From NCBI GenBank assembly GCA_033439265.1, contig JAVTVX010000024.1, forward strand, positions 434,001 to 498,000: a DNA stretch of 64,000 nt, in the 5' to 3' direction. Shown piece by piece: positions 4,158 to 49,076 of the stretch (its first letter is position 1; every line of letters starts with the position of its first letter). This DNA comes from Dillenia suffruticosa. Its lineage: Eukaryota; Streptophyta; Magnoliopsida; Dilleniales; Dilleniaceae. Both the position numbers and the translations under genes were made by a program. A model generated the notes under the pieces. It saw only the letters and a program-made list of their open reading frames with translations, ran no database searches and was not told the origin of the DNA.

Positions 4158-5113
4158 TTAGTTGTCTTCTCTAGACTTCGGTGTCCCCACCTGTTTCATT
4201 GTTAGCTCTCTGGGCATTCCCACTATGCATAGCAAATTAAAAATTGGGTGTCATGACTGTTTGTGAATATTGAAATTAAATTTAGTTAAAATTAAATAAA
4301 AATTTAGAACATGAAATTACATTTTTTTGATATTTTGTATCTTTATATATCTGTTAATTTTAATTAAAAAAAATGATATAAATTAAAAATAAATCTGGGT
4401 AAGCCTGGTTTCCGAACTGAGGGTGTTTGGATTGTGTGGAGGTATGGATGTTCTTGATCATTTTAGTATCAAATATACAAGTAATTTTAAAGCAGGAGAG
4501 GGAGTAGGAGATCATGATGAGCATCGGTGTGTAAAAAGAAAGGCAGCCATTACTGTTTTTTAATTTCAATAATCTGATGATCAAACAATGATTTTGAGCC
4601 TGAAGTTGTAATTTCCAAAATTAGTGAAACTTCATAATTTTGGGCTTATTCAAGCATCATAGGTAGCATTCAATGATGTGCATCTGATACCTTCACTTTT
4701 TTGTCATTAAAGAAGAAATCATTGCGACATAACTTTGTTACATAGCCCCTAGTGTTATTTATTTATTAATTACACAATTTAAAAAAATAAATAAAAAATC
4801 ACAAAGTGCCAAACAAATATGTTGAATAAATCATAAAGTTATAATAGAAATAAGTCTGGATTCTATATTAAAATTTAGATTTTGAAAAGACTTTCATGTA
4901 AAATAAGAAGAAAGAAAATAAGTATTAAAGTAAGAATTTAAATTTACATATTATGCCCTAACAAGTAAGGTAATCTACGTCAGACTTGGTAAATGTGCTT
5001 GATCCTAAAATACAAAATACCATGTCCCTAAATTATAAATCAGCAATTAAGTAACTTTTTAAGGTCCCAAATGAACACACAGAAATGATAGCAGGAGCTT
5101 GAAGGAGAGCTAG

Positions 5114-5132: not shown

Positions 5133-8100
5133 GTCTTGCCTCTCCAGAAAAGAAAACCCTATTCCCATGCTTGTTTGTTTGGACGAGTATTTGAATTATG
5201 TTTGGATATTCAGATTTTGAATTTTAAAATATCATATCAAAAGTCAAAACGAGATTTATCCAAATTAAACTTTAAGTTAAATGATTTGATTTCATTTATG
5301 CAAACCAATTCCACATGAAATCTATTTAATTTTAAAATAATAATTTATCCAAATTAAATTATCTGAATCAATTTACTTGAACTAATTTCATAATTTTGTT
5401 AATTGAATTTTGGGTGGAGTCTGAATAAAAAATTTTATTTTTAAAAACAAACTATTAATCTAAATTTTTAATTGGTTAAAATTACTCGATTTTTATTAAT
5501 TTGAAGTGAATAATCTGATTTTTTAATAATTTATACGGATGGACAAATGATTTGATTCAAATAATAAACCCCCAACAAAGAAAAATATTATTGAATTTGA
5601 TTAAGTTTTTGAATTTGATTTATAATTTAGATATAAAAATATTATAAGAGTATCTATTTTAAATGAATCATTATAAATTTTGAACCAAATTAATTAAATT
5701 AAAATTTTAGATATCTAACGATTTAATTATAAAAAGAAAAAAAAAATTCAGCCACCCACTTCCTCAACGCACCCCGGAAAAATCCCGTCAAGACAGATGC
5801 CCTATACAAATAAGGGTTTTGGGACTCGGACTGTCCCTGTGAGGCCAGAGGGGCCATAAAATTCCACGCTTTTTTTCCTTTTTTTTTTTTTTTATGTGCC
5901 TTTTGCATTGCATGGACGTGCGGGGGAGAGGAGAGGAGAGGAGAGGTGGGCCCCGATCACCTGACTGCGCGTGCAAAGCCGAACTTCATGGGGGCTCTCC
6001 CTCTGGGTCCCCCATCCCTCGCTCTTCCCCCGCCCCCCCCCCCCCCCCAAACAAAAAAAAAAAAAAAAAAACAAAAAGGCCTCAACAGTCCAATTCAACA
6101 CGTAATCACACAGCAGGTTCTTCTATTACTTCATACTCTTCTCAATTTCCCACCGCCACCATCATCATCGACCCTTTTCTTTATCCTAAGCAAAAACTTC
6201 ATTAACGTCCGCCCTGCAAACAAAATCAAAAGTCGAGTGCGTTTAATTGAGATTTTTTTTTCAACGATATGAGTTTTATTTTTAGATAAATTTAAAATTT
6301 TTCTTTCTAATTAATTTATTTTATTAATTAAACTAATCATATCAAATATTAAATAAATTTATTCACATAAACAAACCAAACTCTATATTTCAATTCAATT
6401 CATTTACCAAATAAAACTCAAAATTGCACGTATGGTGGAGTTAGATTGTGACGGGGCGCATGGATCAGGTAGCCCACAATTGGAAGGATAATTTTTTTAA
6501 ATAATTTACTGTAAATTTTAAAATAAATTAATTAAAATATGGATTCAGATATTTGATTAATATAATAATAAAAAAAAAACGTATATACTAAGTTGAGCAG
6601 GGATCAAACCATTAGATCTTCTCCGCAAAATCGGCCAATCTAAAATAATTTTTTTTAGGGTCGCTTGGATTTGAGCATCCTTTTAAAAGTCTTAACTCCA
6701 TGTTAGGATCAAGTTCCGACCTAAAACCAAAAGAGACAAAGATAGAAGTAACCGGCTACACAAATCACACCGTAATCAAATCATGGTGTAGCTTTAATCC
6801 AATGGTTCATATCATTTCCCTAAACACAAGTTATGATCAAACTTGTATATGCTAGTTTTTGGAAAATTATAACGTAAAAAGTGAGAATTATTAGTTTGAG
6901 ATGATAAAAGCTTTTATTTTGTCTAAAAATTATTAAGCCATTCCATGCGGTAACCAATGTTCGGAACACAGAAGAAAATTAAAAGAAAAGGGCAGTGTTG
7001 GGTGTTGGTATTCCAACATGAAATTTCATTGTTTTATTTTCCAAAAAATTTCTAAAGGGAAAACCAAGGGGTCCCACGCACTCTCGTTAATCAATTTGCC
7101 CTTTTTTTACGACATTTTTACCTGTTGAATTTTGTTTGAGTCATGATGAGATCTCGACTTGTGGAAAAGAAAAATAGATACGAGGGGTGGAGATTGTCAT
7201 GGTTGAGTCACATCGACGTTTTGTTTTGTCATCATTATTTTTCTCTTTCTACTTTCTAGAGTCAAGCCCACTCCCTCTCTCCGCCTTTACTGTTTTAAAC
7301 CTTATCACACGCTATTTGACTCCTCACTCTAATTGGCCTCTCTTTCCATGACCCTCGCCATATCTAACCTCACAGAAGAGGAGCTTTCCAGGCCCCATTC
7401 ATCCAGAAGCTTTAAGCTCATTTGGGCTTTTCTTTTGGGCATTTCATAATTTGTGAGGTTCGTCTCACATTTCCTGGACCTTAAGAGCTTGGGACTTTCA
7501 CATGGGACACGGTTTATCTATCCTTTCTTTTTTTCTTTTTTTCTTTTGGGTCCCGGGAGTTGGAGTGTCTTTTTCGACCACAAATGACGGGTGCCTTAAA
7601 AATACCAGCATCCGTACCCACCCTCAAAGGATTAACCTCAAAGAATTTCAAGGCAGATGACACTTGCTTACGTTAATTTTATTTTTATTTTTTAACTTGG
7701 TCATTATTTAAAAATCTAACTATTCCACTTTGAATAATTATAGAACCTAATTAAAGACTAACTCTCTCGATACATGGTTTTTTATTTTCAAATATCGAAT
7801 TTAAAATCTTGATTAAGATATTAAGTAGTTTAACGTAGATTTATGGATCATTGATTCCTTCATCTAAAATTGCGTTCAATTAAGTACCCGTTAAGGAATG
7901 TAAAATGATCAAAATGTGGCGCTTTCGGTGTCTCCATCAAGAAGAAGCATATAAAAACATCGTAAAATTACTCTTGCTCTTGATCTTCAGTCCTAGAAAA
8001 CAAATAATGTGATTCCACTCCTGATGTTTAGCCCTGATAAACAAATATTTTGATACCAGCTGGGTCCATAACTGCAACACCTATCCAGTCCCAGCCAGTA

Positions 8101-11291: not shown

Positions 11292-13778
11292 TCACCAGTA
11301 ATCTCCGCAGGAGCAAATCCCATTCTGAAAGTGGTGAAACCTATTCATGTCCCTGATAACGATAATGCGCTTCACAACCTTTGTTATTGACTTAATTGCA
11401 GCATGACAATCAACACATATACGTAGGTTCTTGATTATGCGAATGGGGCTCCCTGATGGTGTCCTAACAAGCCCATAAGCCAGTGCCAATCTTTCACTAT
11501 GTACCCATAGGAGACGTTCCTTTTCCTCATCTTCCACATCAAGCAATACAACATCATATTTAGGAATATATCCTACCTTTGCTGTTTTCAATTTTAACCA
11601 CTCCAACATCCCATAAATTAATCTCCTGTCAGGGTGTGAAGCATCCCCCACAGTGAAATAATGAACTTCACCCTGGTTCTCAATCCAGCTTAGTCCAGGC
11701 TCCTTCTTTACCCGTTTCTTTTTCATGTTATTCCTGACAGAAGCTACATTCTCCCATCTCCCTGCACTTGCATACATGTTGGACAACAATACATGAGTTG
11801 AATCGTCTTTGGGTTCAATCTCAAGCACACGCATGGCTGAAAGTCTTCCAAGCTCAATATCTTTATGTATAACACAGGCACCAAGCAAAGCTCTCCAGAC
11901 CATTACACTAGGTTCATATGGTATCTCCTCTATCAACTTTATGGCCCTATCAAGCTTTCCTGATCTTCCTAGAAGCCAGACCATACAAGTATAGTGTTCC
12001 ATACAAGGATCGATACCATAATCAGAAACCATGGAAGTAAAATATTCTTCCCCTTTATCAACCAGTCCTGTGTTACTACATGCTGATAGGATGCCTACAA
12101 ACGTCAGTTTGTTGGGTTTACAGGCTGATTCCTTCATTGCCTCAAATATTGATAATGCTTCCACAGAGAGACCATGCATGGAATATCCAGAAATCATGGC
12201 ATTCCATGAAACCTCATCTCGTTCGGTCATCGTGTCAAACACCAAATGAGCATTTTGAATATTCCCACACTTGGCATACATATCAATCAATGCATTGGCG
12301 ACCACAATATCTTTGTCAAAAATGGTTTTTATAACCAAGGAATGAATTTGACTCCCTGGATCTAAAGCTGCTAGGCTAGCACAAGCACGAAGAGCACTAG
12401 AGTAAGTTACCTCTGTCGGCTTCCCTGAGTGAGCAAGCATTTCTAGAAAGAGAGTCAATGCCACCTCACCCTTCTCCAAATTTACGTTGCCAACTATCAT
12501 AGTGTTCCAAGTCACGTCATTTCTGTTTGGTGACCTGATAAATAACTCCATTGAGCACTCCAATAATCTGCATTTAGCATACACATCAATGAGGGCATTT
12601 GACACAAATACATCAGATAGAAGTCCAATCTTCACAACATAGCAATGGATTTGCCTCCCTAGATCCAAACATTCCATGGATGCACAGGCTTGTAGCACAC
12701 TAGCCAAAGTAAACTGATTCGGGACAACAGAAGCCTGCCTCATTTGACAGAAAAGCTCAATGGCTTCTTTGCTCAGGTCAGATTGGGAATATCGAGCAAT
12801 CATGAAACTCCAAGGAATCACATCCTTTTTAGGCATCTCCTCAAAAATCTTCCGAGCTTCATGAATGTCTCCAGACTTAGTGTACAAGTCAAGCAATGAA
12901 ATACTTACATAAGGGTCATGCTCATAGCGAGATTTCAAAACACACCCATGAATGCTCTTTCCACAGTTGATGGCCTCCAAACCAATAGCCGCCTTAAACA
13001 GACTCGCAAAAGTAAAATTGTTTGGTTTGAAACCAACCATTCTCATCGTTGAGAAAAGCTCGAATGACTCCTCAAAAAACTCATTTTCAGCATAACAACC
13101 AACCATCCCAGTCCAAGAAACCATGTCCTTCCCAGCAATTGCTTCAAACACTTTCTCAGCAGAATCAACCATGCCCGAAACAGAATAAGCATCCAGCAAT
13201 GCAGTACCGACATATGCATTTGATTCGTGGCCGAGTTTGATAATGCACGTGTGTATGGCACGACCAAAATCTGCGCATTCCATACTTACAAGCACCTTGA
13301 GAATCGTAGTGAATACAAATGGGTTTAGCTCATGCCCTTCTCTTTGAAGCCTTGAAAATAATTCCGCCGCTTCGATGTATCGAAAGGACTGTGCAAAACC
13401 CTGAATCAATGTCACAAAAGAGATCGTGTTTCTATGAGGCATTTCATCGAACAGTTTTGAAGCATCATACAGTGACTCGGACTTAACATACATGTTGAGA
13501 AGGATGTTCCAAGCAAACAAGTCGAGAGATACGCCACGCTTGATAAGATTACAGCGAAGTCCATTTCCTCGTCTAATGTCCCAATTTGAGACGCAGTCTC
13601 GGATGGCTACGGAGAAAGAATGCGGAGAAATGCTAGAAGAAGTTTCAGGTTCTTGTATCCAAGCGATCGCAGGATGAGCCGACAACCTGCGTCGAAGAAA
13701 TTCAATCAAACATTTGGTTTTCGGAAGAGTTGATGTTGTCATCCATGGAAGCGACTTGTGGTAAGTTAATCTGATCAT
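11292..13778 (-). CDS. DYW-class pentatricopeptide repeat protein, organellar
   Basis: An intact intron-less 828-residue PPR protein of the PLS-DYW class, closest in sequence to Arabidopsis At5g13230 (annotated mitochondrial). Such proteins bind one organellar transcript through their repeat tract and convert specific C to U. An Arg-rich N-terminus (residues 1-35) fits an organelle transit peptide. Repeats begin near residue 85 (DLFAWNILLNMYVKS) and run to about 610, with typical pairs such as VSWNAMISGYSMHG. E and E+ motifs follow (from about WRALLGACV), then KKEPGLSWIE near 691. The C-terminal DYW domain keeps the deaminase zinc signature: HSE at 760-762, CVDCH at 788-792, HH at 815-816, CSC at 822-824, and it ends in DYW. 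The first Met of the frame is used; a second Met at residue 13 is possible. No frameshift or stop is seen. Confidence 0.97.
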   Translation of the reverse strand: MIRLTYHKSLPWMTTSTLPKTKCLIEFLRRRLSAHPAIAWIQEPETSSSISPHSFSVAIRDCVSNWDIRRGNGLRCNLIKRGVSLDLFAWNILLNMYVKSESLYDASKLFDEMPHRNTISFVTLIQGFAQSFRYIEAAELFSRLQREGHELNPFVFTTILKVLVSMECADFGRAIHTCIIKLGHESNAYVGTALLDAYSVSGMVDSAEKVFEAIAGKDMVSWTGMVGCYAENEFFEESFELFSTMRMVGFKPNNFTFASLFKAAIGLEAINCGKSIHGCVLKSRYEHDPYVSISLLDLYTKSGDIHEARKIFEEMPKKDVIPWSFMIARYSQSDLSKEAIELFCQMRQASVVPNQFTLASVLQACASMECLDLGRQIHCYVVKIGLLSDVFVSNALIDVYAKCRLLECSMELFIRSPNRNDVTWNTMIVGNVNLEKGEVALTLFLEMLAHSGKPTEVTYSSALRACASLAALDPGSQIHSLVIKTIFDKDIVVANALIDMYAKCGNIQNAHLVFDTMTERDEVSWNAMISGYSMHGLSVEALSIFEAMKESACKPNKLTFVGILSACSNTGLVDKGEEYFTSMVSDYGIDPCMEHYTCMVWLLGRSGKLDRAIKLIEEIPYEPSVMVWRALLGACVIHKDIELGRLSAMRVLEIEPKDDSTHVLLSNMYASAGRWENVASVRNNMKKKRVKKEPGLSWIENQGEVHYFTVGDASHPDRRLIYGMLEWLKLKTAKVGYIPKYDVVLLDVEDEEKERLLWVHSERLALAYGLVRTPSGSPIRIIKNLRICVDCHAAIKSITKVVKRIIVIRDMNRFHHFQNGICSCGDYW

Positions 13779-14600
13779 GCAGTTCTGATCCTTAAGGCTG
13801 AAACTCTGTCTCTGTCTGTCTTCCTCTCTAATTCTAACGTCGGATTCTAACGGGACGGAAAACTGAATTGGCCGTTACGTTGGTCGGTCAGATAAAAGAA
13901 GTGGAGGGAGCGTATGAAACGGAAGAGACGAAGATCGAGCATTCTTGGGCTTGAACGAAATCAAGAATTCTGGGCCATAGTTTTGTGGGCCCATGAAGCC
14001 CATATTTCACCCAACTCAACCTGGGCTATCGGCAGCCTTTTCTCGAGTGAAGAAGCGAGGACAACATTGGCCAATGGTCATTCATGCATTAGGGTTTCCG
14101 AGTCTCTCTCTCTCTCTCACACCTTTGCCCTACCTATATAATGATATACCCCCCTTGACGGCCAACATAACGCCAATGTATCCGATGTCAATCCTTCCTA
14201 CCTGCGACTAATGTCATGGTTGAGGAGAAGTAGAGGTGGATCTCTTCCCTTCGAAGTGGATCTCTTCCTTATGATTCCTCTGATTTTGTTGTTGTGCTTT
14301 CTGTTTATTTTATGATTTTTTATCGGGAAGGTCTGAGCAGATGATGAAAGAAATTACATTGAACTGAATAAGTTGCACGTGATGCTTCTTAAATTCGAGC
14401 TTTTTAAAACTGATGCTCAGTCTCGCCCTCTCATCTTGCTTCTTATTTGTTTTCTTTGTCTTAACCAATTAATCAGAAGTCTGATCTGATATTTCAACTT
14501 TTGGGTTTTGAGTTTTACCAGAGAAATAAAATTAAATGAAAGATCTCCCATGTTTCACGTTCGCAAAACCACAGATCTAATTTCTGTTGGGCGTCGGTGA
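13779..14600. other. 5' flank of the PPR gene
   Basis: The PPR 5' UTR and promoter should lie here, reading leftwards. The stretch is moderately GC-rich near 13.8-14.1 kb and has a CT run at 14104-14118. No clear TATA box could be assigned and no other gene is seen. Confidence 0.45.
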
Positions 14601-17103: not shown

Positions 17104-18349
17104 AACACCCACTCCATCCCTTCTGCCCACAGCAATAATAGGCCAGGATTCATATACACCCGCCCAACCACGTGTTTTTAAAGGTTACAAATAAAAAGAA
17201 AAATTGGTCTCCAAACACACTCGAAGACCAAAAAGAAACAGAGGGAGAAGGTGCAAGGAAGGTAGAGCAACTAAAATATTTTTAATTGCGAAAAAAACCC
17301 TCCGCATCCCATAACTAAAACGTGATTACAAAAGTAATGTCTATGTTCTGCTCTAACATAAAGAAGAGAAGAGAGGGGATTTCTTCATCGATTCTGATTG
17401 GCTTGTTCTCTGATTTTCTTTATAGGGTCCCCAACCCCCCCCCCCCCCACCGCCCCCAAAAAAATAAGATTACTCCTTAATTCTTCTGGTCCCAAAACGC
17501 GTATGCTTTAGAACTGCCATATGGCATAGCACCAATTAGCCTGCAAGAGAAAGAATAATTCAAAACCGCGTGTTGCCTCATTCGTCAAAACATAATGACC
17601 AAGGACTCTACCCAATAAATTTCACATAAGCATTCTCAATTTTCAAAGGAACACACACGTCTTTAGTCCGGGACCACAACTCTTCCCCAATTCAAATCCT
17701 GGGATAATGAGGTTGAAATTTCGTGTAAAAAAGACAGAAAGGCAGAATACACACGTTTTATGTAATGAAATGATTCACCCGCATTAAATGTTTAGTTTCA
17801 CCAAATAGTTGATGATAGTCCTTTTCATACCCTTCAAGTTTCTTTATCCTTTTCTCTCTTTCCAGGTGGGTAGGCAACCCACCGAGTAATGTAGGCCACG
17901 TTTTTCATAATACTCAAATCACGCTTCAAATATGGGAAATTGTGGTCAATTGTGTCATTATCCGAGAAGGAGAATCTCCTCTCGGTAAAAGCTGATTCAT
18001 TGTAGTACACCACGCCATGCCAGGCCATGCCATTCCAAGTCTTTTTTTGTCTAAATTGCATTGTTTGGTGTCCTTTGACCAGAGGACATTAAATAAACAG
18101 TCGGTGTTGTTGTGCAATTTCCCACCGCATTCTTAGAAGGTTTACAACTTTTAAGGCAAAATTGAACACCAAATCATATCACATTAACAGCTAACAAAGT
18201 TTGATCAGGAATGAAGTCTCACGTGGATTATTCATAGAAGATAAATTTTATGGACTTGGAGAAATTCTCGAGTTGTTGGGGGGGGGTATATTTTACTATC
18301 CCTAGAATATGGTCGGGAATCAATAATGTCGAGATTATTATCTAATAAC

Positions 18350-18355
<6 letters not shown>

Positions 18356-18391
<36 letters not shown>

Positions 18392-18430
18392 ATATAATAG
18401 AATGATTTATAATGACCATCAATTTATAAG

Positions 18431-18472
<42 letters not shown>
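18356..18472. repeat. Two (TA)n microsatellites
   Basis: TA runs at about 18356-18386 and 18437-18472 are separated by 50 bp of AT-rich DNA. Each can form a hairpin. Confidence 0.95.
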
Positions 18473-18477
<5 letters not shown>

Positions 18478-18681
18478 ATGGAAGAGTCTGTAAACAAAAT
18501 AATCAATTCATTGCAATATAATGACCAGTGACGAAATAATTCTGTTATTTACTAAGGGAAAAAGAAGTGTTTTTTTCTTTCCTACTGATTAACTAAAACA
18601 AGCATCGGACAATTAATTAGAGAGGGAGAGAGATTAAAAGATAAGAAAGAATCTTTTGGCTAGAAAAGCTCTGACTAACTT

Positions 18682-18997
18682 TTACCATTTATTCCTCAGT
18701 CCCAATTGGAGTGGAGTAGGCATTAAACAAAGTAGTGTAATTGGGGGAGGTTTCAAATACGCTTTGTATTCTCTAGCCTGCCCTCCCCCCCCCCCCTTCC
18801 TAATTAAATAATTTATTAATTTAATTAATGCAGGTTTTTGGCTTAAGTAACAATTTATGGCACATCGCGTTGCACCGGCGGTGACATATAAAAACCTTAA
18901 GATATTCGTAGGACTTAATCTGGAACAATAATAAGATTGCTTTCCCATAATTTTAGATTGCTCCGAAAAAGATTTAAAAAAAAAAAAAAAAAAAAAA

Positions 18998-19037
<40 letters not shown>

Positions 19038-19881
19038 TATGGCGGGAAATATAAAAAAGGAATATGAACCAATATTTTGTTTTTTTACCTCTCCTTGCGC
19101 TTCTCCAGAAATCTCTGCAACGATAGTGTACGTGCCATTGGCAGATCTATTCATCAAAATTAACACTCTGAATATCACTAACTTTTCCATGAATAAATAT
19201 TTATTTTTCCCTTTAAAAAAATAAAAATAAGAATTCTAAAATAAGCAGAGGGGCAGAAAAGAAATTTACCGGCGGCAAGGTTGTTGATAAAGCGTCGTCG
19301 CTCGCGTGAAGACACTGGAGCCTTTGAAGAATCCTCTCCTGAATTTTCCATTGCGAGTTTCAAAATATTCTCCGCCTAATATAAAAAAAAAAAATTTAAA
19401 AAAAGGGTAAAGAAAAGAAAACAGAGAAAGGTAAATAGTTGTGGAAAATTTAATATAAGCAAAAATATGATAAAATGAGGGCAGGGCACCTTATCTTTGG
19501 GAACATCGAAGATGGAGACGGTACCATTGTAGAAAATTGTAAGAGGAGCTGTTTGGGAACACGCAGCAGACTCAGAGGAAGAAGAAGACTTGGGATTAGT
19601 CGGCCTATAAAGGGGCAATGGCGGAAAAGGAGTCGGATCTTGCTTGGGTGTGGACGAACCCGATTCAATCACACTTTTCAGAAGCTCCGGATTCATCTTT
19701 GAAATCGCGCTTTGTAGGTCTGTATAAATGTCAAAAATTATGAACAAAACGGAAAGCTTAAACACGGTGCAAGGTAAGAAGAAAAGAAACCTCGAAAGCT
19801 TCTGCGACGGTCGAAGGATTTTGAGGAAGACAGGTCTTTCTCCGCGCGGAAGAAGTCGAGCTCCACCATTGCTCTAGACAT
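18682..19881 (-). CDS. JAZ/TIFY jasmonate repressor, JAZ10/TIFY9-like, five exons
   Basis: JAZ proteins repress MYC transcription factors in the nucleus and are degraded through COI1 when JA-Ile is present. Exons (minus strand): 19881-19791, 19719-19490, 19375-19270, 19146-19089 and, less surely, 18919-18682. All phases agree, giving about 240 residues. The start MSRAMVELDFF is typical of JAZ proteins. Residues 22-55 (FDRRRSFRDLQSAISKMNPE) match the cryptic MYC-interaction domain known in JAZ10. The TIFY motif TIFYNGTVSIFDVP lies at 91-104. The Jas motif in exon 4 reads LPMARTLSLQRFLEKRKER (144-162): the SLxRFLxKRKxR core is intact, but the degron part has T and L where R and R/K are usual. 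The last intron interrupts the final Arg codon; reading through it gives an immediate stop, the arrangement of the conserved Jas intron. The C-terminus from exon 5 is long and unlike known JAZ tails, so that exon is tentative (about 0.4). Confidence 0.9.
18979..19032. repeat. Poly(A)/(GA)n tract inside the JAZ last intron
   Basis: On the plus strand a 21-nt A run is followed by CACAC and about 15 GA units. Read with the JAZ transcript it is a (CT)n run followed by poly(U). It lies between the donor at 19088 and the proposed acceptor at 18920, occupying about a third of this 169-nt intron, so length changes could affect splicing or retention of the intron. Confidence 0.93.
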
Positions 19882-23725: not shown

Positions 23726-24678
23726 TAAGCCTGTCACCATTTTTTTTTTTTTGGGTGAAAAACAGAGGGTACAAATCCAACAAAGAAAACGGAGGGAAAA
23801 CAAAGAAAGAACAGAGAAATGCAAGGAACCAACTCTCAAGGAGGTTGCTTCTTAGGCCTCCTCATTCAGGCAACACCAGCGGCGTCAAGAAGCAACAGCT
23901 CCTCGACCTCCGTAGGGGGAAGAACAGCTTCATGAGTGTCTGCTGGAGACTCATGCCCCATCTTCGCAAGCTTGTCGGCGCACATGTTCGCCTCTCTGAA
24001 AACATGGATAATTTCATTAACTTTTAGCTCTTGGAGGAGCTCTTTGCAGTCAAGGATTAGATTCTTCCATGGGTGATTATCTCCGACACCTCTATTGATA
24101 GCATTAACAATGGTAAGGGCATCACACTCAACAACCAGAGGACCCAACCTCTTCCTTTTAGCTATAGATAATCCCAATGTCAAATCCCATAATTCTGTCA
24201 TCTCACCATTGGAGGTGCTGACATTGGCCCAAAAGCCATGAACCCAGCCGCCTTGGCTATCTCTAATGACACCCGCAGCTCCCGCCTTCCCATCCCCCAC
24301 TCGAGCAGCTCCATGAATATTCAGCTTGAGGAAACCTTCACAGGGTCTAGTCCAATGGACCTCTATAGCCACCCCTCCACTGCTGGTCGAGCTAGACTCA
24401 CTCATCTTCAACACCACCAAACTCAACACTCTATTCACAATTTGCTAGGGAGGCTCTTTCCACTTTTGACGCTACATTTGGACTTCCAAATATACCAAGC
24501 CGTTAGCCCAAAGACAGGAGATTCCCTCAAAAGACCCAACTTGAACTTCTTTGTCACTCCGGACTTAAGCCAATAGCTGGAATCCTCATTCCAAAACTCT
24601 ACCACCTTATCAATATCTTGAACTAATGTAGACCAAATTGCTTTAGCATGGACACATTCTCTTAAGCCTGTCACCATT
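23726..24678 (-). mobile_element. 5'-truncated LINE (L1-type) with 16-bp TSD
   Basis: The 16-nt word TAAGCCTGTCACCATT occurs at 23726-23741 and again at 24663-24678. Between them lies about 920 bp in minus orientation that ends on the left in a T run (the poly(A) tail of the element) and holds only the 3' end of a plant L1-type LINE: a short tail of the zinc-finger/RT-connection region followed by an RNase H domain. Target-primed reverse transcription explains the TSD, the tail and the 5' truncation. The exact 16-bp duplication implies a fairly recent insertion. Confidence 0.93.
23866..24438 (-). pseudogene. LINE RNase H domain fragment
   Basis: A 190-residue open frame carries a plant LINE-type RNase H fold. 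The usual LNTDGA motif reads LNIHGA, so the first catalytic Asp is His. The other positions persist: Glu in MTELWDL, Asp in VECDAL, and Asp in ANMCADKLAKMG. The upstream frame at 24435-24677 holds the preceding connection segment (LRECVHAKAIW, AWYIWKSKC) and begins inside the TSD, so its Met is accidental. As part of a truncated retrotransposon it is not an independent gene. Confidence 0.9.
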
Positions 24679-34531: not shown

Positions 34532-34950
34532 TGGATCACATCCAACGTGAATAAATAAGGAAAAAAAAAAAGACTCAATCATTTTGCTTTCTGGATTGGG
34601 CTGTACTTTCGTGGTAATAGATCATATCAATAAGTTATATTGGACCTTGGAGTTTCTAAATGATCAACACGTCGGACCAATACTTGCTTAAATAATGTTT
34701 CGTCCTCAAATTCTACACTAAAAGTAAACAATTAATTTATGAAATAACTATGCACCGACTTAATCGAGATGCCATGCAAAGAGATTTCGAGACAAGGGCA
34801 ACGAACCGTAACAACAACACGTGTCATTTTTTTTATCAGAGTACCATCTGGCCCCATGTATGTATTTACGTTTTATATTTCTTTAGTATTTCTCCATCCC
34901 GCCCAAAAGTCAAAGGACTCGAGCAAGGGGGAGACCATTTTCATGCGAAG

Positions 34951-36632
34951 ATGAGTGGCGAAGGAAAACAACCAGGTGCATCATCGGCATCATCGGGACA
35001 GTCCGATGAGAAATCAAAGAAATGGGGGACCCAAGTGATGGGTGCTCCGGCAGCCACAACCACCCACCCCGACAATCAAAGGGCTGCTTTCTGGAAAGCC
35101 GAAGATTATCAACAACGGTACCATCAATACCCTTATCTCCAGTACTTTCCTGTCGAGAAACCCCACAACAATCCTTTGGAGCCCGTCATTCACATGTTCA
35201 GTTCCTGGTCCAGAAAAGCGGAAACCATCGCTTCCAACATTTGGCACCATCGTAAGTTTTGAGGTTCTCCTTAAGATCTTAATTTCACCAAATCAAAACC
35301 AATATAGTACATAGTACAAGACATTTGTTAAATTTTTGTGTAGTGAGAACGGGACCATCAGTGTCGGAGGCGGCTTGGGGAAAGGTTAATTTGACGGCGA
35401 AAGCAATTACAGAAGGAGGGTTTGAGTCTCTGTTCAAGCAAATATTTGCAACAGAGCCCAACGAGAGGTTAAAAGGGACTTTTGCTTGTTACCTCTCCAC
35501 AAGCACTGGTCCCGTTGCTGGAACTCTCTATTTATCTACGGCTCGGGTCGGGTTTTGCAGCGATCGTCCACTTTGCTTCAAAGCCCCTTCTGGACAGGAG
35601 ACTTGGAGCTATTACAAGGTAACACTAACGTTACCCTATCCCATAATAAGGAAAATTCTATGATTTCCCCGGGTATCCATATTTGTGGTAACGTTATTTG
35701 CGGTATTGTGCTCGAAAGAATTCATAGACATCGGCTTCAACGATCATGATTTCTTAGGTAAATAATGGGTAATCATTGAACGGTTATCCACCCATGCTAT
35801 CGATACTATGGTGTCGTAAAATATTCTCCCGCAATAACTTTAGATCTTCTTGGCGGTAATCCTTGTGGTGATAATTTTAGGTCTTTTTTCTGATAATGTT
35901 AAATCTTTCATTGACGCATAAGAGACATGCCGTAGGATCCCAGGACTCTATAATTGAATTTTATTTATATATATACATTAAATTTATTTATATATATATA
36001 TATATATCATAAACGTAGTAAATCAGAAAAATTAAATGGTCCCTGGTGATTATGAAATTAAACCGTCATTATAAATTTACGATATCTCAACCTAAAGTCC
36101 GATGATTTCGATATAACGAGAAATTTTGTTTTAATAAAAAATTTCTCAATCCCTCTTCATAATTTTCTCACTTTAAATATGTATCTTGCAATATGCTTTC
36201 AAAGAAAATTAATCCATCTCACGAACCCTTTGGAGAAGTTAAATCCAAAATAAGTGGTATGGAGAGATAGAGCAGAGGAGTTTTTAATCAGGGGTTAACT
36301 ATTCAATTCAAAATTTAATTTTTTTCCTTGTGATAAGAGTCTCGTGGTCATATTTACCGATAATATATTTATTGGTTTCTTAATTTGACAAAAATTATCT
36401 TTTGTTCTGGTAACAGGTGTCGATACCCCTGAGGAACATATACACAGGGGACCCAGTGACCATGAGAGAGAATCCATTCGAAAAATATATCCAGATTGTG
36501 ACTATCGATAATCATGACTTCTGGTTTATGGGTTTTGTTAATGTTGAGAAAGCATCGCATCATCTGTTGAGCTCTGTGTCTGAATTCAGGGCATTGGAGT
36601 CCGGAAAACGGGTGCCAAATGTTGTTGCCTAG
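34951..36632 (+). CDS. GEM-like GRAM-domain protein, three exons
   Basis: An intact 263-residue protein of the GEM-like/ABA-responsive GRAM family. Exons 34951-35251, 35344-35618 and 36417-36632 join in frame; the Leu of NIWHHLRTGPSV is rebuilt across the first junction. The N-terminus (MSGEGKQPGA, low complexity) leads to the family's conserved AAFWKAEDYQQRYH, then TGPSVSEAAWGKVNLTAKAI, and the GRAM domain from about residue 131 (FATEPNERLKG, STSTGPVAGTLYLS, RVGFCSDRPLCF, SGQETWSYYKV). The distal part EKYIQIVTIDNHDFWFMGFV is also conserved. GRAM domains resemble PH domains and bind membranes or partner proteins. GEM itself regulates root-hair patterning and relatives respond to ABA or cold; which role applies here is unknown. 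All splice sites are GT-AG. Intron 2 (798 bp) holds an AT run at about 35987-36007. Confidence 0.95.
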
Positions 36633-39226: not shown

Positions 39227-41343
39227 TGATCCTAATTCCGAAGATAACTAACCCGGTAACTATCAATGACTATAGACCCATCACTCTCCTAAACACAGCT
39301 TACAAGATTCTTTCCAAGCTCATTGTGCAGAGGTTAAGGCCGCATCTTCAAAAGTGCATTGGACATCATCAAAACAGTTTCTTACCGGGAAGAGGAACAG
39401 TGGAGAATGTCCTAGTCACTCAGGAGATAATTCACTCGATGAGGAGGTCGAAAAGTAAGAAACACTGGATGATTATGAAGATTGATTTGAGTAAAACCTA
39501 TGATAATGTGAGTTGGCATTACTTGGGATAAGTGCTTCTAGACTTCAACCTCCCGATCCCTCTCATAAAAATTATCATGTTTGCAGTCACAAACTCTGAG
39601 GTGTCCTTAGTTTGGAATGGTGAGGTGTTGCCGCCGATGAGGACTGGGCAGGGGCTTAAGCAAGGAGATCCCTTGTCTCCATATCTCTTTATTCTAGTAA
39701 TGGAGCGACTCTCATATATTATCCAAGACAAAGTGAAGAAAGACGCTTGGAATCCTTTCAAATTTTCCCGCAATGGTCCTACTTTCTCTCATCTGTTCTT
39801 TGCATATGACCTCATGCTTTTTGCAGAAGCTGATCAACTGAATTTGAGCATAGTGAGGGAATGTCTGAAAGACTTTTCAGCAGAAAGTGGCCTCAGTATA
39901 AATGAGACCAAATCGAAGGTGTGGTTCTCCGCAAGGACGCCTGCGTTTCTTAGAAGCTCCCTAACTTATATGTGTAAGTTCACTACTATAGAGGATCTAG
40001 GCAAGTACTTGGGATTCCATCTCATCCACAATAGAGTAAATAAGGATTTCTACAACCATTTGGTGGAGAAAATCAAAGATAAATTAAATGGTTGGAGTAA
40101 GAAGCTGATGAGCCATGTTGGAAGAAGAGTTCTAATTCAGGCGGTAACTTCTGCCATTCCTTTATATACTATGCATGCTGGTTGGATCTCCACCCATACC
40201 TGCAGGAAGTTAGATAAAATCAATAGAGACTTTCTTTGGGGAAGTAGAGAGGGGAGCAGGAAGGTTCATCTAGCTAGATGGGATGTGGTCTGCAGACATA
40301 AGATGGCTGGAGGTTTGGGTATCCGAGACATGAGACAAAGCAATATAGCTATGTTAGCTAAGTTGGGGTGGTGCCTCATGAAGAAGGACCAGACTCCTTG
40401 GTGCCAAGTGATAGAGCAGAAGTACTTGAGGGGGAAGAGTTTCTTGGACCTTAGCAACAAAGCCAAGGGATCTCACATTTGGAGAGACATTCTAAAAAGC
40501 AGAGAGTGTATCAAGAGAGGCATGGTTTGGAGGGTAGGGAATGGAAGGAAGATAAACTTTTGGGAGGACACGTGGATGGGGAAGGACCTTTTAAGTGAGC
40601 ATGTTCTAAATCCTCGGGTCGTAAATGGTAGCGAGTTGAAGGTCAACCACTTCATCACAAAAGAGGGAAAGTGGAAGATTGGGGAGCTGAAGGACCTGGT
40701 CAGTGAGGAAAAGATATAAGAAATCAGAGGAGTTTTACTTCCTAGGAGAGAAGATGCGGAGGATAAACTGGGATGGTTAGTTACCAAGGATGGAGAGTTC
40801 TTAGTATCAAGTGCCTACCGTCTACTGCAAGGTAATAATTACGTTCAGATGCCAGATCAGGCTAAATGGAAATGGATTTGGAGAGCTAACTGTCTAGAGA
40901 AAGTCAAGTTCTTTATTTGGCTGGCGATGAGGGGGAAACTCATGACGAACGTAGAAAGAAAGAAGAGGAGGCTCTCGGATCAAGACAGGTGCGAAGTCTA
41001 CAATGAGGAGGAAGAGACGGTCCTACATGTATTGAGAGATTGTCGAGAAGGTAAGGAAATGTGGCGAAGGATCATTCAGAGCATAGATGATGTTAGTGAC
41101 TTCTGGGATAATAATGCTGCTGAATGGATTAGACGAGGAATTCAGGGTGTGTTCAAAGTTAAGCCTCTGCAAGAAAGTGAAGTTTGTGAGGCGACGATCT
41201 GGTGCATTTGGAAAAGAAGGTGTAGAACAGTTATAAAGAGTGTGCAGACTCCAACTAAGGTTATGGTGACAATGATCAATTGCTTTGCAGAAAATGGGAA
41301 GAGGCTCACAGACAGGAGGATTGCCAGAGCCAAAAAGAAATGA
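39227..41343 (+). pseudogene. LINE reverse transcriptase and zf-RVT region
   Basis: One frame runs from 39223 to 41343 with in-frame stops at 39529-39531 and 40717-40719. RT landmarks in order: DYRPITLLNTAYKILSKLI, MIMKIDLSKTYDNVSW, QGLKQGDPLSPYLFI and LFFAYDLMLF. The last should read FADD: the first catalytic Asp is Tyr, so the enzyme would be inactive even without the stops. The connection region (GRKINFWEDTW) and zinc-finger-like zf-RVT segment (WIWRANCLEKVKFFIWLAM, then VLHVLRDC) follow; the second Cys of the usual CxxC pair is Tyr (RCEVY). Confidence 0.93.
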
Positions 41344-41344
41344 T

Positions 41345-41884
41345 TATTGTCAAGTGGTCTCCCCTGATACAGGGAAGTTAAAGCTGAACACAGATGGCGC
41401 TTTTGACTCCAACTCTGGAATGGCTAGTGGAGGTGGTATCCTACGAAATGTAGAGGGAAATTGGGAATTGGGGTTCACCCCGAATATAGGGAAGACTAAT
41501 GTGCTATCGGCGGAAGTTTGGACTTTAAGAGAACGACTCCTGATTGCTAAGCTCAAAGGTCCTGCGGAGATTGAAGTGGAAGTGGACAATCTAGCTCTGA
41601 CTCACATGCTGAAGAAGATTGAGGAGTCTCATCCTCTCGTGCACGCTGTGATAGACTGCCGTCAGCTGTTGAGGGAGCTCGGAGTGGTGGAAGTGAAGCA
41701 CGTGTACAAGGAAGCCAACAAGTGTGCTGATCATTTAGCTAGGTTGGGCAAAGCAAGTCCTAATGGGGTGTCCATCATGGAGAGGCCGCCTAACTCTATC
41801 ATTTCCTTGCTGAGAGATGACAAATGCGGAGCAGAGGCTAGAAGGCTCCTGAGAGGTAGTTCGGTGGGCCGTGGTTGTGTGTAG
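41345..41884 (+). pseudogene. LINE RNase H domain
   Basis: It is read in a different frame from the upstream RT/zf-RVT part. The frames appear to have been shifted by small indels near 41340-41360, around TCTCCCCTGAT. The RNase H fold is otherwise complete: LKLNTDGAF, LSAEVWTLRERL, EVEVDNLAL and HVYKEANKCADHLARLG retain all four acidic catalytic positions, unlike the copy at 23.9-24.4 kb. Confidence 0.9.
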
Positions 41885-47894: not shown

Positions 47895-49076
47895 TCAAGG
47901 TGATTGAGCACTGTTTGGGCCCTCGAAATGGAGAAGTTGACCGCTGCATTTGGGGCACTGAGTCGCTTGTTTGGAGATCATGTAATACATGAGACAGCGC
48001 TTGCAACCTTTGACAACAAGAACACTTCCTTTGCTGTTGCTGCCACATTCATCACAGTCAAGAAGACTGCGTAGCTGCTGATCTCTTGACCCAGATGCTG
48101 GAGATGACTCCGATGAAGACTCCTCGCTGTCGCACGAACTATCCTCTCCCTCTGAATAGTACATATCAACTATTAGCCGATCCGGCCTCATCAACCTCGG
48201 ATCCTCGTTCGATTTCATTCCCGTTTTCCAGTTTATATAATATTTCTCTCCGGTCTGTACCCAACACACCAACATAGAAAATTTATTAATATCCAAGACT
48301 AAGCACCGCAGACATTATTTTTGAAGATCAAGAAAAGAATGTTTCCGAGAACCCCATCAAGGATTAATGCAAATTATCATCAAACCCGAAAGAATAATAT
48401 ACTAAAAAATTTTAAAAACACTCAAAAAATTTCTACCCCACAAATGCTTTCTTTTTTTTCTTTTTTTTTTTGTTCTTCTTTGTATTCTCCTTTTGAGTTT
48501 GCTTCTTTTGTTCAAAAGAAAAAGATGGAGGAAAAAGGGTAAATTGCCTTTTAGGGTTTATGTTGACTGGAAACCCTATATTCCAGAGAGTGTACAGAGA
48601 AAAGGAGACATCAAGATTAATAGCAATAAATTCCCAAAAAAAAAAAGTGCTCAGCAATTAATAGCCCAACCCATAAAAAGCGACAAAAGAAACACTGAGA
48701 GCAATTAAAGATCTGTTCGCCCCCTCCCCCGTCCAAAAGAAATGTCATTTATTGAAACAAAAACAAGCGAAGCGATCGAGCATACGATAAACAAAACCTA
48801 GGAAAAACAGAAAAACAACAAAAAAAAAAGGAAAGAAAGAATGAAAACCTTCAAATCGAGACATTGCTCCCAAAAATAAGGAAGAGGGATTTCAGAATTG
48901 AGTTCCACAGTTTTTTGGGAAAGAATAAGATTGTTTTCCGGTGAATCTGAAGTGGCTGAATCCCCAAATCCACCGAGTTCCACAGCGGCATCTTCGCTTC
49001 TTTCTTTAATGGTACACTTTTCTAGTAGAGATCTCTCCAACGATTCTGTATTCGTCGCCATATTTGGAGGTGTCAT
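47895..49076 (-). CDS. WW-domain protein, CURLY FLAG LEAF1-like
   Basis: Two exons, 49076-48849 and 48254-47895, join at a phase-0 GT-AG intron to give 195 residues; a second Met six codons in (MATNTES) is an equally likely start, giving 190. The WW-like domain is split by the intron: LPYFWEQCLDLK, then TGEKYYINWKTG and EDPR, with the two Trp at 69 and 85. A Ser/Glu-rich acidic stretch follows (EGEDSSCDSEESSSESS). A C-terminal Cys-rich part has CDECG, CKRC and CPKC pairs, probably binding zinc. Arabidopsis and rice relatives (CFL1) act with HD-ZIP IV factors in cuticle formation. The assignment rests on the WW motif and Cys-pair layout; the physiological role here is inferred. Confidence 0.88.

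Follow-up and report, generated by a model that had tools for sequence, protein, structure and literature searches.

A JAZ10-type gene of Dillenia suffruticosa and its paralogue share a degron without the second basic residue

JAZ10 acts as a feedback brake of jasmonate signalling, and the locus described here raises the question of whether a JAZ10 gene with an altered degron still encodes a repressor and, if so, how readily jasmonate would remove it. The window, the whole stretch of 64,000 nucleotides analysed (C24:434001-498000), belongs to a D. suffruticosa assembly of 596 Mb in 37 contigs, which was also the genome searched for relatives. An initial annotation had placed a JAZ10/TIFY9-type gene with a preserved Jas helix in the window, had read its degron loop as LPMART-L with Thr in place of Arg/Lys at the sixth residue, and had argued that the change is not a misreading of splice sites. 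Each of these claims was borne out by the gene model and the domain matches.

The gene lies on the minus strand (19881..17477) and its five exons join in an unbroken frame, with GT-AG borders at every intron, to encode 182 aa (20.44 kDa, pI 9.71, computed; Table 1). Exon 4, whose product is DLPMARTLSLQRFLEKRKER, has AG directly before it and GT directly after it as splice sites, and continues the frame of exon 3. Its minus-strand codons, (G+)AT CTG CCA ATG GCA CGT ACA CTA TCG TTG CAG AGA TTT CTG GAG AAG CGC AAG GAG AG, translate as DLPMARTLSLQRFLEKRKE(R), with Arg completed across the Jas intron. The sixth degron residue is Thr. Because the Thr and Leu codons are internal to the exon, no splice-site shift can restore Arg. 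Cryptic splicing that bypasses the degron was considered and rejected, as use of the AG within exon 4 (TTGCAG) would lose 32 bases and break the frame. Exon 5, absent from the initial annotation, was picked from five candidate positions by its acceptor and JAZ10-like end, and a matching exon is present in the paralogue described below. Lying ~1.5 kb downstream of exon 4, it supplies the X5PY part and thus a full Jas motif. Retention of the Jas intron would read AG/G TAA, placing a stop directly after KER, and this predicted product presumably resembles the truncated Arabidopsis JAZ10.3-type form. CACGTG is absent within 1 kb upstream of both JAZ10 copies; CACATG-type sites in the same 1 kb number three in the window copy (-833, -816 and -132) and zero in the paralogue.

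Table 1. Features of the window and exons of the JAZ10 paralogue. Positions are those of the window, except for the paralogue (L015), which is given in locus coordinates.
Feature	Position	Strand	Content
JAZ10 exon 1	19791..19881	-	ATG and first half of CMID (MSRAMVELDFF...SFDRRRSFR)
JAZ10 exon 2	19490..19719	-	Remainder of CMID; TIFY motif (TIFYNG); phase 0 end
JAZ10 exon 3	19270..19375	-	Linker leading to Jas motif
JAZ10 exon 4	19089..19146	-	LPMART-L degron loop with Jas helix SLQRFLEKRKER; phase 2 end, within Jas Arg20
JAZ10 Jas intron	17541..19088	-	1548 bp, GT-AG
JAZ10 exon 5	17477..17540	-	X5PY end of Jas motif (LIGAMPY), ...WDQKN, stop codon
Paralogue exon 1	4269-4362		
Paralogue exon 2	4435-4676		
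Paralogue exon 3	4781-4886		
Paralogue exon 4	5010-5067		
Paralogue exon 5	6470-6548		
PPR protein	11295-13874	-	Long open frame with E motif and DYW deaminase domain, organelle RNA-editing type
RNase-H-like frame	23869-24444	-	Additional to the RNase-H-like piece at 41276-41881
Frame preceding GRAM frame	34696-35259		No Pfam match
GRAM frame	35283-35660	+	GRAM domain (Pfam); by our assumption perhaps an ABA-responsive/GEM-like gene
LINE-like element remains	39532-41881	+	Reverse transcriptase piece 39532-40716, RNase-H-like piece 41276-41881
GIR1-like frame	47898-48314	-	Frame with GIR1-like zinc ribbon

The window-copy protein scored 46.6 bits for the tify domain (PF06200, cut-off 27) and 47.6 bits for Jas_motif (PF09425, cut-off 22.1) in Pfam, far enough above both cut-offs to exclude a chance match. 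Its Jas motif has the form SLx2Fx2KRx2Rx5PY (SLQRFLEKRKERLIGAMPY), and exon 4 finishes with the AG of the 20th Jas codon, which puts the Jas intron in phase 2; the same position, in phase 2 of Arg20, is given for 10 of 12 Aquilaria JAZs in the available part of PMC10298640. Residues 20-50 match the JAZ10-type cryptic MYC-interacting domain (CMID) of PDB 5t0f (TIFY 9, E 1.1e-6), and residues 143-169 match the JAZ10 Jas peptide of PDB 5t0q (E 3.2e-6), the best match among short peptides. The 5t0q peptide (DLPIARRKSLQRFLEKRKERLVSTSPY) carries the canonical degron loop. The two matches to JAZ10 peptides identify the window gene as a JAZ10/TIFY9 member, with predicted MYC-binding CMID and Jas helix both kept, and set LPIARRK against LPMARTL position for position. 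The LxLxL EAR motif, a mark of the JAZ7/8 type, is present in neither JAZ10 copy.

A Jas profile search of the own genome (50 of 50 candidates scored) gave 21 matches above cut-off, all of whose Jas stretches were read. Twelve are JAZ-type, the window gene included, and nine end in FR(E/Q)KR(K/R)xR...KKxRY, which we take to be the typical end of CCT-domain proteins and have labelled as such. Half of the 12 JAZs have a basic pair at degron positions 5 and 6 (LPIARK, LGMSRK, VPQARK in two genes, IPIARR and MPIARR). This basic pair is not kept in the two JAZ10 copies or in four genes (L014, L021, L022 and L023) in which the degron loop is absent (GLSMKRSL or GSSVKRSL) and which presumably resemble JAZ7/8. 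One JAZ1-type gene (L018, C13:6276482) has the unusual degron DLGMSRKNSL, with Leu-Pro-Ile-Ala altered and Arg-Lys kept; its presumed partner, L009, has DLPIARKASL.

Searching the own genome with the full protein (19 of 19 candidates scored) gave 14 matches, nine of which are exons of two loci, the window gene on C24 and a paralogue (L015) at C26:19.96 Mb, which is the one further JAZ10-type locus among the candidates scored. The other five were rejected as a third JAZ10 copy, being weak (E 0.016 to 0.81; C4, C18, C35, C12 and C13) with none over the CMID exon; those on C35 and C13 correspond to L009 and L018, respectively, both of JAZ1 type. Outside the own genome, no relative came from 103 pattern matches in viral_contigs or from 55 in genome_contigs, as expected for a plant gene. 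The paralogue encodes 192 aa (21.42 kDa, pI 10.04, computed), and its Jas stretch is DLPMARSLSLQRFLEKRKERLIGALPY, with the degron LPMARSL. The initial annotation had named a relative with a canonical loop as evidence that would speak against it; none was found in the own genome, where the one further JAZ10-type locus identified has Ser.

Positions 5 and 6 thus hold Arg and Thr in the window copy and Arg and Ser in the paralogue, and the two copies have in common Met at position 3, Leu at position 7 and the missing second basic residue, with codons 6-7 reading ACA CTA in the former and TCA TTA in the latter. Their 27-residue Jas stretches are identical except for T/S and a single Met/Leu exchange within X5PY. 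Because these three features are shared, the degron change is most likely older than the duplication. With the ancestral state taken from AtJAZ10 and from strawberry and pepper JAZ10 as described in papers, the simplest history would be Arg to Thr before the duplication, then Thr to Ser in one copy. The duplication itself does not look recent, because of the divergence of the introns (58/71, 72/96, 82/122 and 953/1346 identical aligned columns) relative to the coding sequence (494/546 nt). The contigs C24 and C26 also carry a VPQARK-type JAZ pair (C24:9.25 Mb and C26:11.26 Mb, with 82.6% identity across 4846 columns), in inverted order relative to the JAZ10 copies. The two JAZ pairs, together with the similarity of the JAZ10 flanks, suggest that C24 and C26 are a duplicated chromosome.

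Published work indicates what loss of the second basic residue could mean. The initial annotation had held that this residue contacts the ligand, and this agrees with the literature: in the COI1 structure three COI1 arginines are coordinated, along with JAZ Arg206, by one inositol-phosphate group, and each of these residues is tied to JA-Ile too (section of PMC6724136 available), and docking with molecular dynamics linked Arg206 to the inositol phosphate (excerpt of PMC6058352). Replacing both basic residues of JAZ1 stabilised it in protoplasts (excerpt of PMC6953042). For strawberry JAZ1, the accessible text of PMC7347570 reports weak COR-dependent binding for IPMQAK and IPMQRA and none for IPMQAA, IPMQRK being a working non-canonical degron. 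A survey of 1065 JAZs requires R/K at both position 5 and position 6 before it counts a degron as functional (available part of PMC6829463), a rule by which LPMART and LPMARS would not be counted. Affinity is not predictable from the degron sequence alone, as tomato JAZs with an identical LPIARR degron range in Kd from 9.2 to 1776 nM, partly owing to neighbouring residues (PMC8245654); position 7, Leu in the window copy, falls within this neighbouring stretch. The third-position Met probably does little harm, given that working degrons with IPM or LAM exist, the latter in tomato LAMARR (Kd 16.2 nM, PMC8245654). The strawberry single-Ala result and the tomato Kd range favour a weakened degron, which is better supported than a non-degradable one.

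We therefore consider it likely, going by the sequences compared here, that the window gene is a functional JAZ10 repressor gene whose COI1 degron became weaker in an ancestor, before the duplication, through loss of the second basic residue and a Leu at position 7. Most likely, JA-Ile-dependent COI1 binding would be weakened rather than absent and the repression modules intact. Thr would have taken the place of the second basic residue (Arg/Lys) and would since have stayed Thr or become Ser, followed in the sequence by Leu. MYC factors would still be docked through the CMID and Jas helix, and the NINJA/TPL corepressor still recruited through TIFY. The missing positive charge would cost one contact to JA-Ile, inositol phosphate and COI1, so that JA-Ile would drive ubiquitination weakly and the brake would live longer when jasmonate is high. 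Weaker COI1 binding, stability, the braking role and the history of the change are all what we infer from these comparisons. At high JA-Ile, turnover of JAZ10 may be near normal, given that the single-residue mutants retained weak COR-dependent binding.

The strongest alternative, which we regard as unlikely although it deserves weight, is that the loop is a working variant of this lineage, COI1 accepting Thr/Ser at position 6 while Arg5, the Jas helix and Leu7 compensate, so that degradation is about normal. The working non-canonical degrons of strawberry and tomato, the residual binding of IPMQRA and the near identity of the 27-residue Jas stretch are all consistent with it; however, the functional examples named in the accessible text of PMC7347570 and in PMC8245654 retain the basic pair at positions 5 and 6. 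Nor does the receptor appear to compensate. A PF18791 search gave 12 matches, eight of them obtained as loci and four as short stretches, comprising two COI1 genes, on C34 and C16, and ten others more distant from COI1. The two were read exon by exon, as aligned pieces, against the Arabidopsis COI1 sequence, and no stop codon occurs within the aligned pieces of either. The checklist of 22 hormone- or inositol-phosphate-site residues combined those named in the available part of PMC6058352 with further contact residues of the structure. The C34 copy keeps 21 of the 22 (Lys144 to Arg) and the C16 copy 20 (Arg120 to Lys, Lys144 to Arg), hence both are near-standard, with no compensating change evident at the checked residues.

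Decay is a less probable account, and we think it improbable: one or both JAZ10 copies would be relaxed or unexpressed, with the degron change the first step of loss. JAZ10 is one among several redundant repressors, and the copies diverge in their linkers and C-terminal tails, with dN 0.135 against dS 0.184 in the linker before the Jas motif (NG86). Against this, both reading frames are full, all introns are GT-AG, exons 1-5 differ in length by 3, 12, 0, 0 and 15 bases, and the change common to both copies means that both survived after it arose. Furthermore, both copies are under purifying selection across the whole CDS, with pN (0.072) well below pS (0.171; NG86-type counts, Fisher p = 0.0015). 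Its strength varies with method, dN/dS being ~0.39 by NG86 (0.075/0.193), ~0.36 by LWL85 (0.072/0.201) and, more weakly constrained, ~0.66 by YN00 (0.089/0.134); these values describe the whole CDS and not the degron, whose T/S codon is among those that differ. By NG86 the tify region is the most constrained (dN 0.017, dS 0.201), and the 27-residue Jas region has dN 0.034 and dS 0.107. With both copies intact, the degron change would be tolerated or useful, and neither a fresh lesion nor a sequencing error. Misassembly or miscalled bases in the degron codons can in practice be set aside, as Met, Leu and the loss of Arg recur, through different codons, at an independent locus on a second contig.

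A weakened ancestral degron is the reading that we carry forward, and it has two bolder extensions. In the first, which is possible but tentative, the entire JAZ10 clade of the lineage would be JA-Ile-insensitive at full length, a hard-coded long-lived feedback brake comparable to the Arabidopsis splice form JAZ10.4. The second, suggested by residue class, is highly improbable: Thr/Ser replacing Arg beside the COI1 arginine cluster would form a degron phosphorylation switch.

Compared with known systems, the window gene resembles AtJAZ10/TIFY9 in its CMID and Jas motif, as well as in the TIFY motif and Jas intron that are also typical of JAZ genes, and differs in its loop (DLPIARRKSL in AtJAZ10, DLPMARTLSL in the window copy, DLPMARSLSL in the paralogue). 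JAZ10.3 is a JAZ10 splice form that is missing part of the Jas motif and brakes the response. The same is said of AtJAZ10.4 in work cited in the relevant passage of PMC8245654; both forms arise by alternative splicing, whereas the window gene is altered in its full-length coding sequence. AtJAZ7/8/13, JAZs without a functional degron, share with the JAZ10 copies a predicted poor JA-Ile-dependent COI1 binding and a kept repressor part, but JAZ8 carries an LxLxL EAR motif and lacks an LPIAR-like loop (excerpt of PMC10298640), whereas the JAZ10 copies keep LPxAR. Tomato SlJAZ9-11 (QPQTVK; Kd 402-1107 nM for JA-Ile, PMC8245654) also have a naturally changed loop, although their position 5 is Val and their position 6 Lys, whereas the JAZ10 copies keep Arg5 and lack a basic residue at position 6. 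For the pepper allele CA255_JAZ9_1, the part of PMC13111379 available describes a natural and putatively loss-of-function change in which the site that anchors the hormone loses its basic residue (Lys to Asn); that allele belongs to one accession and to another JAZ subclade, whereas here the loss affects both JAZ10 copies. Degron-defective JAZs are already known from these Arabidopsis, tomato and pepper examples. The apparently new element is the loss of the second basic residue across a full-length JAZ10 clade, in both copies found: among the matches listed from open-access main texts, there was no report of a whole JAZ10 clade with such a loss, nor of LPMART, LPMARS or related degron strings in a JAZ.

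If this reading is true, a genome with both JAZ10 tags crippled, and with COI1 and six of 12 JAZs standard, would allow one to ask, in a natural setting, whether plants tolerate or favour a stable JAZ, and would give insight into the balance of defence and growth in such plants. The gene would also offer a natural single-residue variant for measuring the contribution of Arg206.
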